Shown here in pieces: positions 1-32,579 of a stretch of 61,549 bases of DNA (its first letter is position 1; each line of letters starts with the position of its first letter). The DNA is from a virus. The stretch spans positions 1 through 61,549 of IMG/VR virus record IMGVR_UViG_3300021225_000417; one strand, written 5' to 3'. The notes under the pieces were generated by a model. It worked only from the letters and a program-made list of their open reading frames with translations. It was not told the DNA's origin and did no database searches. Both the position numbers and the translations under genes were made by a program.

Positions 1-20
1 GGTTCCGCCAAGGTTCCGCC
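1..20. repeat. 20-bp terminal direct repeat (left copy)
   Basis: Positions 1-20 (two GGTTCCGCC units joined by AA) are identical to 61530-61549. This is either the overlap of a circular assembly or a short direct terminal repeat. It is made of the same unit as the adjoining repeat cluster, so a chance end inside a repeat is also possible. Confidence 0.75.
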
Positions 21-154
21 AGCGAAGGAGAGGCGGAACTACAAGTGATTGAAATAAAAAGCAAAGCGGAACTGCGGAACCACATTTGGCGGAACTGGCG
101 GAACCTAGTTCCGTTTTCCCAACAAAAACAACGTTGCGGAACTGCGGAACTTCC
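1..154. repeat. Iteron-like GCGGAAC repeat cluster
   Basis: The core GCGGAAC occurs forward at about 32-40, 66-73, 74-81, 88-96, 97-105, 136-143 and 144-151, and inverted (GTTCCGC) at 1-9 and 12-20. Several copies are in tandem with 8-9 base spacing. One pair forms the palindrome GGAACCTAGTTCC at 100-112. The same inverted units lie at the right end (61530-61549), so in a circle the cluster is continuous. Such arrays are usual for initiator or repressor binding sites. I infer an origin or control region. No convincing gene lies here; an 81-codon frame at 45-290 is mostly repeat and GC-rich sequence. Confidence 0.7.
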
Positions 155-159
155 GGGGG

Positions 160-178
160 GTTATACATTAAGTATAAC
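160..178. promoter_or_regulatory. Perfect inverted repeat GTTATAC-N5-GTATAAC
   Basis: Seven-base arms (160-166 and 172-178) flank ATTAA in an AT-rich island just after the repeat cluster. It could be an operator, or a melting element of an origin. There is no direct evidence for either role. Confidence 0.45.
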
Positions 179-258
179 ACCCTGCGCTCGCGGCGCTCGC
201 GCTCCGCCGGAGGCTCCGCGCTCACGGCCGCTGCGCGCGCCCGTTGGCGTGCGGGGGA

Positions 259-287
259 TTGACTGGACAGGGGTTGCCTTGGTTTAT
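259..287 (+). promoter_or_regulatory. Candidate sigma70-like promoter of the left operon
   Basis: TTGACT at 259-264 is followed after 17 bases by GTTTAT at 282-287, about 30 bases before the first likely start codon at 317. The -35 box is good and the -10 box weak. It would drive the 317-4157 operon, which ends at the terminator at 4188. Confidence 0.4.
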
Positions 288-316
288 TAGTGCAATTGAA
301 GTCGGAGAGGATTGAT

Positions 317-688
317 ATGGGCATGCGGGCGAAGGGGACGCGGCACGGCGTCGCGGATGTCAGGACGATTGGCGACAGGGAATACGTCGTTCGCGCGGAC
401 GAGCGGCCTTTGGCGAAGAAGGGCAGATGGGAACTTTCGGAGTTCACGAATTGGCGAGGCGCCGCGTGGGTGTCGCTGAAGTTGTTCGACACGCACGGTC
501 AGGCGAGGAAGCGGGTCTATCAGATTGGTTACAGCCTTGAGTGCCGGAGGCTTGCGATGAATGTCAATTCGTGCGCCTTGCGTGATCGTTACCCGGAAAT
601 TTTTGATTGGGTCCTGGAGACGATGCGGGAGCTGCACCAGTCCGGCGAGCTGGACACTCCCGCCGGCCGCGAGGATGTTGAGCGATGA
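317..688 (+). CDS. Hypothetical protein, first gene of left operon
   Basis: A 123-residue basic protein of unrecognised family. The frame is open from a GTG at 290, but the ATG at 317 follows GGAGAGGATTGAT, a much better ribosome site. No motif or membrane segment is visible. Its end overlaps the start of the C5 methyltransferase by four bases (ATGA), so the two are translationally coupled. It may therefore act with the DNA-modification genes, but that is only context. Confidence 0.7.
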   Translation: MGMRAKGTRHGVADVRTIGDREYVVRADERPLAKKGRWELSEFTNWRGAAWVSLKLFDTHGQARKRVYQIGYSLECRRLAMNVNSCALRDRYPEIFDWVLETMRELHQSGELDTPAGREDVER

Positions 689-2232
689 CCCGCGGCGTTT
701 ACTACAACGAGTTCGACCCCCGCGCTGCGGCGTGGCTGCGCGCTTTGATCGAGCGGCGCCTGATCCCGGCGGGTGAAGTGGACACGCGATCGATCGCCGA
801 CGTTCAGCCGGATGATTTGCGCGGGTTCACGCAGCATCATTTTTTTGCGGGCATCGGCGGCTGGAGCCGGGCGCTTCAGCTCGCGGGGTGGCCGGAGGAT
901 CGGCCGATATGGACGGGCTCGTGCCCGTGTCAGCCATTCAGCGTGGCGGGAAAGAGAAAGGGGACAGCGGATGAAAGACATGTTTGGCCAGATTTCTTCC
1001 GGCTCATTGGCGAGTGCAGAACTGCAGTCGTCATTGGCGAACAGGTTGCGAGCAAGGCTGGGCGCGAGTGGCTCTCCGGAGTGTTCGCTGATCTGGAAGG
1101 AGTGGGCTATGCCGGGGCGGGAGCCGATCTGTGCGCTGCGGGCGTCGGCGCGCCGCACATCCGGCAGCGGCTCTACTGGGTCGGCGTGGCCGACGCCGAA
1201 GGCGTCGGACGGCGAGGGCGGGCGAACGTCGAAGACGAAGGGCGGAGGGAACAGCCATTTGCCGATCCACGCGAGGGAAGCGGCGACGTGGTCGACGCCG
1301 CGAGCCTCGGACGGCGAGAAGGGTGGTCCGAACATGAGCTTCGGGGCCGGGGGCCAGCCACTGCCGGCGCAAGCAGCGGCGACGTGGCCGACGCCGACGA
1401 CGCGCGATGGCAAGGACGGCAGCTTCTGCCCGAACGTCCCGACGAACGCTCTGCTTGGTCGAGCGGCGTGGAGTGGCGACGGGGCGCCGACGGCAAAGAG
1501 AGGCGCGTTGGATGCCAGATTTGTCGCATTTCTGATGGGCTTTCCCCAAGCATGGGTGAGAGCAGGAATGACTGTCGAGAAGAGGCGAAGGGGGAAATAA
1601 ATGGGTGGAAAGATCAAACAAGCTCCCGACAAGATTTGCCAGACCTGCGGAGTGTCGTTCAATCGGACGAGATTTACCAGCGGCGTTTTGGAGGACCTGA
1701 CTCGGTATATGGCACGGAAATTCTGCAGCATCAGTTGCGCGGGAACCCTTCCAAATGTGACGAAGCAGGCGCTTCATCAGCGGGCAAGGGAATTCCGCGG
1801 GGAGGAATGCGAGGCGTGTCACGCGACGGAGAGGCTGCACGTTCATCACGTCGACCACAACCCGAGCAACAACGATCCGTCGAACCTGAAGACGTTGTGC
1901 GCTTCTTGTCATTTGAAACTTCACTGGGCGACTGGAAAGAAGGCGTCGAAGAAGCAGTCGGCCTGCAAAATCTGTGGAGAGCCTGCGAGCAAGTTGGGCA
2001 TGTGCCAGAAACATTATCAGCGTTTCCGAAAATATGGAGATCCATGCCTTACGAAACGCGGCAATGGATTGGGCGTATACTTTGTGAGGGAGGACTTGTC
2101 TGGCAATCTATCCCGCTGCTCACAACTAATCAGCCCAATCGAATAATGCTTTTGCGGGGCTTCGGTAACGCCGTCGTCCCGCCGCTCGCGGCCGAAGTAA
2201 TCAAGGCGCTCATGGACATTCTGGATCATTGA
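685..2232 (+). CDS. C5 cytosine DNA methyltransferase with two genes nested in another frame
   Basis: A 515-residue protein with the ordered motifs of AdoMet-dependent cytosine-C5 methyltransferases: motif I FAGIGG (about 54-60), motif IV GSCPCQPF with the catalytic Cys (about 79-86), motif VI as GEQVAS (about 118), motif VIII RQRLYWV (about 160) and C-terminal motif X GFGNAVVPP (about 492). The conserved parts lie at both ends of one open frame. The middle (about 170-480) is a long low-complexity segment with VADA-type repeats, and should include the target-recognition region. In a different frame the same DNA carries two other plausible genes (971-1600 and 1601-2146). It probably methylates phage DNA to evade restriction. 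The specificity cannot be read from sequence. Confidence 0.88.
   Translation: MTRGVYYNEFDPRAAAWLRALIERRLIPAGEVDTRSIADVQPDDLRGFTQHHFFAGIGGWSRALQLAGWPEDRPIWTGSCPCQPFSVAGKRKGTADERHVWPDFFRLIGECRTAVVIGEQVASKAGREWLSGVFADLEGVGYAGAGADLCAAGVGAPHIRQRLYWVGVADAEGVGRRGRANVEDEGRREQPFADPREGSGDVVDAASLGRREGWSEHELRGRGPATAGASSGDVADADDARWQGRQLLPERPDERSAWSSGVEWRRGADGKERRVGCQICRISDGLSPSMGESRNDCREEAKGEINGWKDQTSSRQDLPDLRSVVQSDEIYQRRFGGPDSVYGTEILQHQLRGNPSKCDEAGASSAGKGIPRGGMRGVSRDGEAARSSRRPQPEQQRSVEPEDVVRFLSFETSLGDWKEGVEEAVGLQNLWRACEQVGHVPETLSAFPKIWRSMPYETRQWIGRILCEGGLVWQSIPLLTTNQPNRIMLLRGFGNAVVPPLAAEVIKALMDILDH
971..1600 (+). CDS. WPTP/ASDG-repeat protein nested in the methyltransferase gene (+1 frame)
   Basis: A 209-residue protein starting MKDMFGQISSGSLAS, with AAAGGGGA upstream of the ATG. 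It contains LWKEW-like and ICALRAS segments, three near-repeats of the form WPTPKASDGEGG, and a C-terminal RGALDARFVAFLMGFP. From memory, proteins with these blocks are common next to or within phage C5 methyltransferase genes and have no known function. The whole gene lies inside 685-2232 in the +1 frame. The VADAEGVGRRG repeats of the methyltransferase and the WPTPKASDGEG repeats here are the same DNA read in two frames. Its stop is followed directly by the HNH start. Confidence 0.6.
   Translation: MKDMFGQISSGSLASAELQSSLANRLRARLGASGSPECSLIWKEWAMPGREPICALRASARRTSGSGSTGSAWPTPKASDGEGGRTSKTKGGGNSHLPIHAREAATWSTPRASDGEKGGPNMSFGAGGQPLPAQAAATWPTPTTRDGKDGSFCPNVPTNALLGRAAWSGDGAPTAKRGALDARFVAFLMGFPQAWVRAGMTVEKRRRGK
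1601..2146 (+). CDS. HNH endonuclease nested in the methyltransferase gene
   Basis: A 181-residue protein with a zinc-ribbon HNH core: ECEACHATERLHVHHVDHNP (about 69-88), then NNDPSNLKTLCASCHLKLHW. The paired CxxC motifs and the HH, N and H residues are those of HNH homing-type nucleases. A further Cys pair (CKICG, MCQKHY) follows, and an additional CQTCG lies at the N-terminus. The start is supported by a strong AAGGGGGAAATAA ribosome site and a TAAATG junction with the preceding gene. It overlaps the methyltransferase C-terminal half in the +1 frame. It may nick DNA to aid packaging, or be mobile; both are inferences. Confidence 0.82.
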   Translation: MGGKIKQAPDKICQTCGVSFNRTRFTSGVLEDLTRYMARKFCSISCAGTLPNVTKQALHQRAREFRGEECEACHATERLHVHHVDHNPSNNDPSNLKTLCASCHLKLHWATGKKASKKQSACKICGEPASKLGMCQKHYQRFRKYGDPCLTKRGNGLGVYFVREDLSGNLSRCSQLISPIE

Positions 2233-2233
2233 C

Positions 2234-2548
2234 ATGCCAAATCGTGAAATTGCGCGCATGGGCGGCGTTGGAGTTTACCGAACTCCGCAGCCGCCGGCTG
2301 GCGCCAGAAAGTGGGTGAACTTTTGGGTTGTTGGATATCGAACTTATCCGGATGATTTTGGCGTTGAGGGGAGGCAGAAAATAAAATTCATGATTGGATG
2401 GAGCCTGACGGACTGGAAGCATTCGAAGACCGACGGATGGAAATGGATATTGCAAAAAGACCCGGTCTTCGCAAAATGGCTGCTTGATAATATCGAAATG
2501 GAGATGAGACAAAATGGCCCTGCACGAGCAATCAGTCGGGAAGACTGA
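2234..2548 (+). CDS. Hypothetical protein
   Basis: A 104-residue protein rich in Trp and aromatic residues (WVNFWVVGYR, WSLTDWKHS). Its family is not recognised. It begins just after the methyltransferase stop and its end overlaps the adenine methyltransferase start by 35 bases, as expected in a compact phage operon. The segment around 2496-2513 inside it serves as ribosome site for the next gene. Confidence 0.6.
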   Translation: MPNREIARMGGVGVYRTPQPPAGARKWVNFWVVGYRTYPDDFGVEGRQKIKFMIGWSLTDWKHSKTDGWKWILQKDPVFAKWLLDNIEMEMRQNGPARAISRED

Positions 2549-3005
2549 CGAGTGGTATACGCCGAAATATATTTTCGACGCATTGGATTGTGAGTTCGAC
2601 ATGGACGTCGCGTCGCCTGAAGACAGAACGCATTGTTGCGTGCCGGCGAAGAAATTCATTGTGCGAGACAGCCTTATTGTCAGATGGAGCGGTTTTGTCT
2701 GGATGAACCCGCCATTTGGCGCACGAAACATGTTGCACTTTTGGCTGGATAAATTTTTTCACCATCACAACGGGATTGCTCTTGTTCCCGACAGAACGTC
2801 TGCGCCGTGGTGGCAGAGGCATGCGCCAAAGTCTGATGCCGTTCTTTTTGTTGCAAAGAAAATAAAATTCATTGGGGCCGATGGCGTCCCCGGAAAGTCT
2901 CCCGCGCAAGGGACTTGTCTCCTCGCGTCTGGAGAGCGGGCCACTGAAGCGCTTCGGCGAGCCGAGGCAAAAAGCCTCGGAGTTTTATTCAAAAATTACT
3001 ATTGA
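2514..3005 (+). CDS. Phage-type DNA N6-adenine methyltransferase
   Basis: A 163-residue protein of the phage Dam family (DNA_N_6-adenine MTase). DEWYTPKYIFDAL near residues 12-24 is the family N-terminal signature, and WMNPPFG (about 63-69) is the catalytic [DNS]PP[YFW] motif for transfer to the exocyclic amino group. LVPDRTSAPWWQ and the VLFVAKKIKF strand follow the usual order. It is full length for the small phage members. A GAAATGGAGATGAG ribosome site precedes the ATG. With the C5 enzyme upstream it forms a DNA-modification cassette, probably anti-restriction. Confidence 0.88.
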   Translation: MALHEQSVGKTDEWYTPKYIFDALDCEFDMDVASPEDRTHCCVPAKKFIVRDSLIVRWSGFVWMNPPFGARNMLHFWLDKFFHHHNGIALVPDRTSAPWWQRHAPKSDAVLFVAKKIKFIGADGVPGKSPAQGTCLLASGERATEALRRAEAKSLGVLFKNYY

Positions 3006-3022
3006 AATGGAGATGATAAAAA

Positions 3023-3715
3023 ATGGCTCGCAGACCAACAGCGAAACTGCCGAAGGCTGACAAAGGCGTCGCGGTGACGACGCCAACAATTCCGTGGATG
3101 CAGACGCCCGGCATGTATCTCTCCGGGAGGTCATTTCTTGATGAGGCCGACGCGATAGAGGTCGAGATGGAGCTGAAGTGGGGCCGCGATCGGTTGCGGC
3201 TCCTCGTGTCGCAGGAGTTGCGTGAGAAGTTTGATCGGCAGCGATATCTCACCGCGCAGGCTCGGTGGTCGGGCGATCTCGAAGACGTCCGGCGCGAGGC
3301 GAAGCGCATGGCGACGGCGTGGCGCGCGCTCGACAAGGCTGCGGCCGCCGCCGGCGCCAATGAGCTGGACCCTGAGATCTGGGAGGTGACGCTGCATGAC
3401 GGCACGGTCGCCACGATCGTGAAGGACCCGACGTTCCTGTCGCGCGTCGTCGCCGACGGGCGCAAAATCAACGCCTACACGCTCGACGAGATCGCGAATA
3501 TGATTTCGGCGTTCCCCGAAATATGCAAGGCGAAGGCGGAATTCCCCGGGGCGGCGGTGACGCGCACAAAGACGCGCGTCGACGACCCTCTGCAAACCCC
3601 GCTCGGAGACAGCCCGGAAGGCATTCACGAGGCGACGCCGCCAATCGACGGCGTCGAGGGCTTTCGGGGAGAGGTCAGCCCCAAATCAATGCTCAATGAC
3701 GACATAGGATTTTGA
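3023..3715 (+). CDS. Hypothetical protein
   Basis: A 230-residue soluble protein with a Lys/Arg-rich N-terminus and a helical central part (WGRDRLRLLVSQELREKFD, KRMATAWRALDKAAAAAG). Its family is not recognised. The start is preceded by the genome's recurrent TTGAAATGGAGATGA element. The stop is directly followed by the next gene (TGATATG). It sits among modification genes, but no function can be assigned. Confidence 0.7.
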   Translation: MARRPTAKLPKADKGVAVTTPTIPWMQTPGMYLSGRSFLDEADAIEVEMELKWGRDRLRLLVSQELREKFDRQRYLTAQARWSGDLEDVRREAKRMATAWRALDKAAAAAGANELDPEIWEVTLHDGTVATIVKDPTFLSRVVADGRKINAYTLDEIANMISAFPEICKAKAEFPGAAVTRTKTRVDDPLQTPLGDSPEGIHEATPPIDGVEGFRGEVSPKSMLNDDIGF

Positions 3716-3716
3716 T

Positions 3717-4157
3717 ATGAACGGACGCACATTTTTCAGCAAGAGACGACAGCGCTGGCACGCCGAGATGCGCAGCCAAGGGAAGCGCATTCACCTCGGG
3801 TCGTATCAGTCGCGCCCCGAGGCGGAGGCCGCTCTGGCGGTCTCAATGCGGGACGCGGAGAGCGCGCGGGCCATGCTCCGCACCGGCGGGGAGAGCCTAT
3901 CGGAAGACGAGCTGCTGCGCGCGGAGCCGATCAGGCTGTCCCTCCACGGCGGCGGCGAGCTTGTGATTGATCGCGTCTCGAAAATCATCCCGGCGCACGC
4001 GCGCCTGTGCGCCAACACGCCGGTCGAGGCCACGATCCCGGATTACGGGGAGCGGCGCAGCGCCTTCGCCGGCAAAAGGATGATCGTCATGTCGCTGCCG
4101 CGCGTTCGGTTTTTGGAGAAGCCAGACCCCTTGGCTGCGGAAGCCCCCGCAGGCTGA
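3717..4157 (+). CDS. Small protein with AP2-like/integrase-arm-like N-terminus
   Basis: A 146-residue protein. Residues 5-35 (FFSKRRQRWHAEMR, then KRIHLGSYQSRPEAEAAL) resemble the three-strand AP2 or integrase arm-type DNA-binding fold (W-x-A...K-x-I-x-L-G-x-Y/F...EAA). The rest is unrecognised and lacks the Arg-His-x-x-Arg-Tyr residues of a tyrosine recombinase, so it is not an integrase. It is the last gene before the terminator at 4188. A DNA-binding role is an inference. Confidence 0.6.
   Translation: MNGRTFFSKRRQRWHAEMRSQGKRIHLGSYQSRPEAEAALAVSMRDAESARAMLRTGGESLSEDELLRAEPIRLSLHGGGELVIDRVSKIIPAHARLCANTPVEATIPDYGERRSAFAGKRMIVMSLPRVRFLEKPDPLAAEAPAG

Positions 4158-27664: not shown

Positions 27665-32579
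<4,915 letters not shown>

Follow-up and report, generated by a model that had tools for sequence, protein, structure and literature searches.

The locus at positions 685 to 2232 of the window, a 61,549-nucleotide stretch of viral DNA (positions 1 to 61,549 of IMG/VR record IMGVR_UViG_3300021225_000417), probably represents a C5 cytosine DNA methyltransferase (MTase) that has been split by overprinting and that carries a mobile nuclease gene. In this arrangement, frame 0 would produce alpha, in which a long unstructured linker would connect motifs I-VIII, for SAM binding and catalysis, to motif X, and the +1 frame would produce beta, a row of target-recognition modules with motif IX last. Beta would supply recognition, alpha would need a mere spacer between motifs VIII and X, and the two may come together as a single active and possibly multispecific enzyme protecting the phage DNA. 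A homing-type HNH gene appears to have been inserted in the beta frame, immediately behind the part that encodes motif IX, with its start a few bases from the new beta stop and with its own Shine-Dalgarno (SD) sequence, so that its translation would probably be coupled. An insert behind beta would harm neither half as long as its frame-0 shadow stays open. The frames themselves, homology, the switch in constrained frame, fused homologues, empty alleles, and start and SD statistics were observed directly, and we infer expression, alpha-beta assembly, module specificity and homing.

As read from the ORFs of the window, frame 0 is stop-free over 685-2232 (515 aa) and matched the Pfam C5 methylase model (E 1.4e-15) and, over residues 1-512, PHROG 363 (E 3e-68). 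The +1 frame is stop-free from 764, has an ATG at 971 and ends with a TAA stop at 1598-1600; this WPTP-repeat ORF matched PHROG 1008 ('DNA methyltransferase'; E 2e-33). A second +1 ORF, joined to the preceding one by a TAAATG junction, runs from an ATG at 1601 to a stop at 2144-2146 (181 aa) and scored 22.2 bits against Pfam HNH (cut-off 21.4). The coordinates in a preliminary description of this DNA (685-2232, 971-1600 and 1601-2146) were exact. Its count of three genes is correct for ORFs, but fusions of the WPTP family with the catalytic family in other phages make one two-part MTase with an inserted nuclease the better description. The features of the locus are as follows.

685..2232, + strand: alpha, C5 MTase in frame 0, 515 aa (Pfam, PHROG 363, AlphaFold2, fold match)
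971..1600, + strand: beta, WPTP ORF in the +1 frame (PHROG 1008), probable target-recognition modules and motif IX (selected frame, fused homologues, start cluster)
1187..1288, + strand: beta repeat module 1 (WPTPKASDGEGG..., 34 aa; module clustering)
1289..1384, + strand: beta repeat module 2 (WSTPRASDGEKGGPNMSFGAGG...; module clustering)
1385..1483, + strand: beta repeat module 3 (WPTPTTRDGKDG...; module clustering)
1502..1555, + strand: motif IX-like segment in the +1 frame (GALDARFVAFLMGFPQAW; residue conservation, +1-frame constraint)
1556..2133, + strand: insert, approximate extent relative to the empty alleles L006/L007, comprising the new beta tail, the HNH gene and its MTase-frame shadow
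1588..1594, + strand: Shine-Dalgarno-like AAGGGGG ahead of the HNH start
1601..2146, + strand: HNH endonuclease, 181 aa, with CxxC pairs and an HH...N...H core (Pfam, family alignment)
2143..2190, + strand: alpha motif X (LLRGFGNAVVPPLAAE)

Alpha has motifs I, IV (PCQ), VI, VIII and X in order together with a Rossmann MTase fold, which identifies it as a C5 cytosine DNA methyltransferase. Its catalytic core (motifs I-VIII) occupies residues 1 to ~170 and motif X the C-terminus; AlphaFold2 gave a pLDDT >90 over most of residues 1-170 and >80 over 490-515 (the motif X helix), and the core fold matched M.HaeIII and M.HhaI (E about 1e-7). Between these parts, pLDDT was mostly <50 at residues 188-445, and residues ~180-450 were mostly predicted to be disordered. 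The claim of a complete C5 motif set in frame 0 holds for motifs I, IV, VI, VIII and X and not for motif IX, whose likeness lies in the +1 ORF: frame 0 lacks the arrangement of a target-recognition domain (TRD) and motif IX between motifs VIII and X in one polypeptide, and its stretch from VIII to X mainly shadows the +1 frame and is predicted to be disordered. The shadow of the HNH gene in the MTase frame is stop-free and likewise predicted to be disordered. Among homologues, the middle of the MTase frame was conserved mainly as an open frame and not as a sequence.

To locate the selected frame, substitutions were counted at +1-frame codon positions 1:2:3 in nucleotide alignments of 26 independent pairs of relatives. 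The counts were 307:841:473 up to motif VIII, indicating selection on frame 0. Between motif VIII and the beta stop they were 277:275:552, indicating selection on the +1 frame. A sliding profile of the ratio of position 3 to position 2 stayed mostly at 0.2-0.8 upstream and reached about 1 in the interval 40-10 codons ahead of where motif VIII ends. Over codons 10-100 past motif VIII the ratio was 2.7-15; it was about 2 at motif IX and fell to 0.5-0.7 at motif X, where frame 0 is again the selected frame.

Homologues keep both frames open, rather than only one. In a sample of 74 MTase loci selected solely by MTase-frame alignment, frame 0 stayed open for a median of 188 codons past motif VIII, the +1 frame for 171 and the +2 frame for 23, and the +1 frame was open through motif IX in 58 loci as compared with a single locus (1/74) for the +2 frame. 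Phages of Paenibacillus, Lacticaseibacillus and Bacteroides have a nested +1 ORF like that of the window at ~44% GC, with a +2 frame full of stops. With database matches for each frame as well, the extensive dual coding on one strand that the preliminary description had noticed is upheld.

As judged from homology, position and constraint, the same MTase most likely has its target-recognition and motif IX half in the WPTP ORF. Mycobacterium phage DLane gp65 contains, in a single frame, motifs I-VIII, four LPTP repeats, a motif IX-like segment and motif X, and matches PHROG 363 (the alpha family, 5e-78) and PHROG 1008 (the beta family, 1e-72) together; L013 is a second fusion of the alpha and beta families in one frame. 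In Arthrobacter phage Andrew the enzyme is split, with the repeats, motif IX and motif X in the second ORF, and the annotation of Paenibacillus phage Leyra gives methyltransferase for each of its two nested ORFs. PHROG 1008 and PHROG 363, although listed apart, each as 'DNA methyltransferase', correspond to overlapping frames of one DNA in many phages. Module clustering resolved the beta repeats into modules of about 30 aa, and module 2 was found in 10 loci, at differing positions and with catalytic domains down to 24% identity. In the motif IX-like segment, P192 was invariant and L188, M189, G190 and W195 nearly invariant in 59 homologues, and by this pattern and its constraint we call the +1 segment at 1502-1555 a putative motif IX. 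On that call, motifs I-VIII and X lie in the large chain and motif IX in a small chain from another ORF, the division that characterizes M.EcoHK31I-type enzymes. Beta alone gave a poor AlphaFold model (pLDDT 61); a PDB sequence search with beta returned no meaningful match, and a PDB fold search with this pLDDT 61 model returned none.

The +1 starts that are preceded by an SD sequence cluster about 70 codons ahead of the end of motif VIII, and the ATG at 971 lies there. The beta start codon is not strictly conserved, and 971 is the likeliest start as judged from this cluster.

We compared the window with L006 and L007, the nearest relatives found, which share the neighbouring genes and lack the HNH gene (empty alleles). 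In L006 the MTase is 284 aa long and the +1 ORF ends ...LMGFPIAWDDCGASATPSSRRSRPK, and in the window the HNH insert sits between ...LMGFPQAW in the +1 frame and NRIMLLRGFGNAVVPP in frame 0, giving the +1 ORF a different, basic tail and a new stop. Part of the insertion site is found at each end of the insert, with CCCAATCG of the empty allele recurring at the right edge (2134-2141), and because of this partial duplication the insert boundaries are approximate. In L007, a TGAATG at L007:4278-4283 places a frame-0 TGA right after motif VIII, which splits alpha, and the +1 ORF stays open.

Related HNH genes, in the +1 frame relative to a C5 MTase and right behind a WPTP-type ORF, were found in Komagataeibacter phage phiKX1 and four IMG/VR contigs. 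A family-alignment scan placed ~60 of roughly 70 better-scoring homologues wholly within an open MTase frame, with the HNH always in +1, including that of a Staphylococcus phage with 35% GC whose record annotates the methyltransferase alone; such overprinting is thus not rare, contrary to what had been supposed. Eight HNH homologues were not nested, and distant cellular homologues were mostly not nested. Only one of the 74 loci sampled through the MTase frame had an HNH of this family, and identities of the HNH and the catalytic domain were weakly correlated (Spearman 0.36), so the stable linkage of nuclease and MTase that marks a restriction-modification pair was not found. No group I or II intron was detected by Rfam at positions 1-4000 of the window, the sole match being to a weak sRNA elsewhere, and Pfam detected no intein domain. 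From its patchy distribution, the HNH gene is probably a homing-type, mobile gene. A defence-system assignment was considered and rejected: the MTase matched generic type II and Druantia methylase models, and the HNH matched ZorE via the HNH core only.

Within nested HNH genes the substitution counts were 420:477:853, with the HNH frame dominant, as compared with 296:227:757 in free-standing HNH homologues; a flanking-gene control for codon positions, limited to four genes, gave 119:72:357. The excess of position 2 over position 1 in nested genes, reversed in the free-standing homologues, is the mark of a second constrained frame. At HNH-synonymous sites, changes in the MTase frame were somewhat more conservative than expected (BLOSUM z 3.4, about 3 allowing for transitions), a result that is only supportive. 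When synonymous codons of the HNH gene in the window were permuted, the MTase frame was left open in 0 of 2000 trials; the same permutation at the ~60 nested loci, which include GC contents of 0.35-0.45, gave 0/2000 in many and mostly <0.02 in the rest. The HNH insert could be tolerated because alpha would need this stretch only to be stop-free, as a linker. Selection on alpha across the HNH gene is weak beyond openness (z about 3), and alpha could be partly impaired here.

Nested HNH genes start at most 11 nt from the upstream +1 stop in 45 of 58 cases, directly behind it in 26, and an SD match of 5 or more bases precedes 34% of their starts as compared with 4% of background positions. These figures suggest that HNH translation is coupled behind beta.

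Other endonucleases were seen in the +1 frame of related loci. Between motifs VI and VIII of L028:3200-4711, the +1 ORF contains a different HNH-like endonuclease, and the MTase frame there is also open. In L239 (Mycobacterium phage DotProduct, NC_042336.1 41819-43810), a LAGLIDADG-like endonuclease ORF (LAYVAGLIDGEG...) overlaps the annotated methylase in its +1 frame. At L003:2077-3426 (Klebsiella virus KpV2811) the WPTP ORF continues stop-free into an endonuclease VII domain that is annotated as a separate gene.

Elsewhere in the window, a Dam-type N6-adenine MTase (PF05869, E 3.7e-13) is encoded two genes downstream at 2514-3005 (+ strand), and the phage therefore carries two different DNA methylases. 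The non-coding start of the window (1-160) contains repeated GGTTCCGCC/GCGGAAC motifs. A collagen-like tail fibre gene at 28407-32579 (+ strand) has long GGCGCGACG-type repeats that leave several other frames open through composition alone.

We weighed four other explanations of the locus. If the WPTP ORF were a mere shadow of the MTase frame, the real genes would be one 515-aa MTase and one HNH, in keeping with a Pfam that knows frame 0 only and with a +1 frame that is indeed mostly shadow up to motif VIII. We find this hardly credible given that substitutions past motif VIII peak at +1-frame position 3, that the +1 frame is open at ~44% GC where the +2 frame is not, and that DLane and L013 carry the same modules in one frame with their catalytic domain. 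Those single-frame fusions, and the sharp switch of selected frame at motif VIII, would also be expected if programmed frameshifting joined beta to alpha in one chain (motifs I-VIII, WPTP repeats and IX, possibly with X) with no separate polypeptide. However, motif X of the window is in frame 0 again, so a full enzyme would need two opposite shifts; moreover, SD-preceded +1 starts, 971 included, cluster ~70 codons ahead of where motif VIII ends, and two nested ORFs are annotated in phage Leyra. Frameshifting is therefore an unlikely explanation.

The preliminary description had suggested that nesting keeps the two activities linked, with the HNH as a functional, restriction-like partner of the MTase. 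Although HNH or EndoVII genes do recur next to or within phage C5 MTases, we consider this idea improbable, since the closest relatives have the MTase without the HNH, the family is present in 1/74 MTase loci, HNH and catalytic-domain identities are weakly correlated, and related methylases carry other endonuclease types in the +1 frame. Alternatively, the HNH insertion might have inactivated the MTase and left the open frame as a high-GC remnant, a reading that draws on the predicted disorder of the alpha insert region and on the stop after motif VIII in the close relative L007. This is very unlikely, because the shadow frame is open in ~60 loci, with permutation probabilities mostly well below 0.02 that extend to GC contents of 0.35-0.45, and motif X is kept downstream.

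Split MTase and mobile nuclease, as we propose them here, combine known systems: ShiLan-type hidden HNH genes and two-subunit MTases are already known. The 'ShiLan domain' conceals an HNH within the DNA methylase of an actinophage: it is a ~200-aa insertion that leaves the methylase frame stop-free and encodes an HNH with zinc fingers in another frame (Arsenault, Gosselin and Gogarten 2025, PMC11855218; 2023, PMC9957025). It is patchily distributed and has no splicing element, its flank is partly resembled at both insert ends, and no Shine-Dalgarno was found, so that leaderless initiation was suggested (PMC11855218, PMC9957025). Compared by described features, the window is alike in the size of its insert, its out-of-frame HNH that leaves the methylase frame open, the zinc fingers of that HNH, its partly duplicated insertion site, its patchy presence with empty alleles (L006/L007) and its lack of intron or intein. 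In contrast, no upstream +1 ORF is described in the ShiLan papers, whereas the HNH gene of the window follows beta by a stop-start junction with SDs and the arrangement is found in many phages beyond mycobacteriophages. PHROG 363 and PHROG 1008 each match one frame of the window, and the library is silent on their overlap or on a single enzyme.

In M.EcoHK31I, the gene for the small subunit is nested in another frame. M.EcoHK31I and M.AquI are two-polypeptide C5 MTases, and the former has motifs I-VIII and X in its large subunit and IX in its small subunit, as summarised in PMC3404938. The TRD of M.EcoHK31I is predicted in the large subunit, again according to PMC3404938, and the analogy is imperfect for this reason, the putative TRD of the window being in the small ORF. 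On the same summary, the division of I-VIII and X in the large chain and IX in the small one is shared; unlike in M.EcoHK31I and M.AquI, the small +1 ORF of the window also holds the putative recognition repeats, which are under selection, and is followed by a nuclease gene. Several consecutive recognition modules were reportedly found by the Trautner laboratory in the phage C5 MTases SPR, phi3T and H2. These multispecific enzymes are named in titles cited in PMC8936443 and PMC4081073. Consecutive recognition modules would be a shared feature, but the putative modules of the window lie in an overprinted frame.

Compared with the open-licence literature, what is new is the identification of the +1 ORF that lies upstream, the evidence for a frame switch, the finding of how prevalent the arrangement is and the likely route of HNH translation. 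As a proposal, the last of these answers in outline the question left open in the ShiLan paper of how a hidden HNH is translated, namely as the downstream cistron of a +1 ORF with a Shine-Dalgarno. Judged from their sequences, many unrelated phages have the same overlapping-frame arrangement, and we propose that their widespread, Pfam-invisible WPTP/LPTP ORFs (PHROG 1008) serve as the specificity half of C5 MTases; gene callers that keep one of two overlapping ORFs would therefore lose half an enzyme. There is perhaps an even chance that this phage C5 MTase family as a whole keeps exchangeable recognition modules in the overprinted frame, one segment serving as both specificity subunit and catalytic-subunit linker, and that homing endonucleases (at least two types of HNH and a LAGLIDADG) find a general refuge in this frame, where they would persist without splicing by way of the stop-free host frame. 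Such a route may allow homing endonucleases to persist within genes without an intron or intein and, if the modules set specificity, the specificities of these enzymes could be read from sequence.
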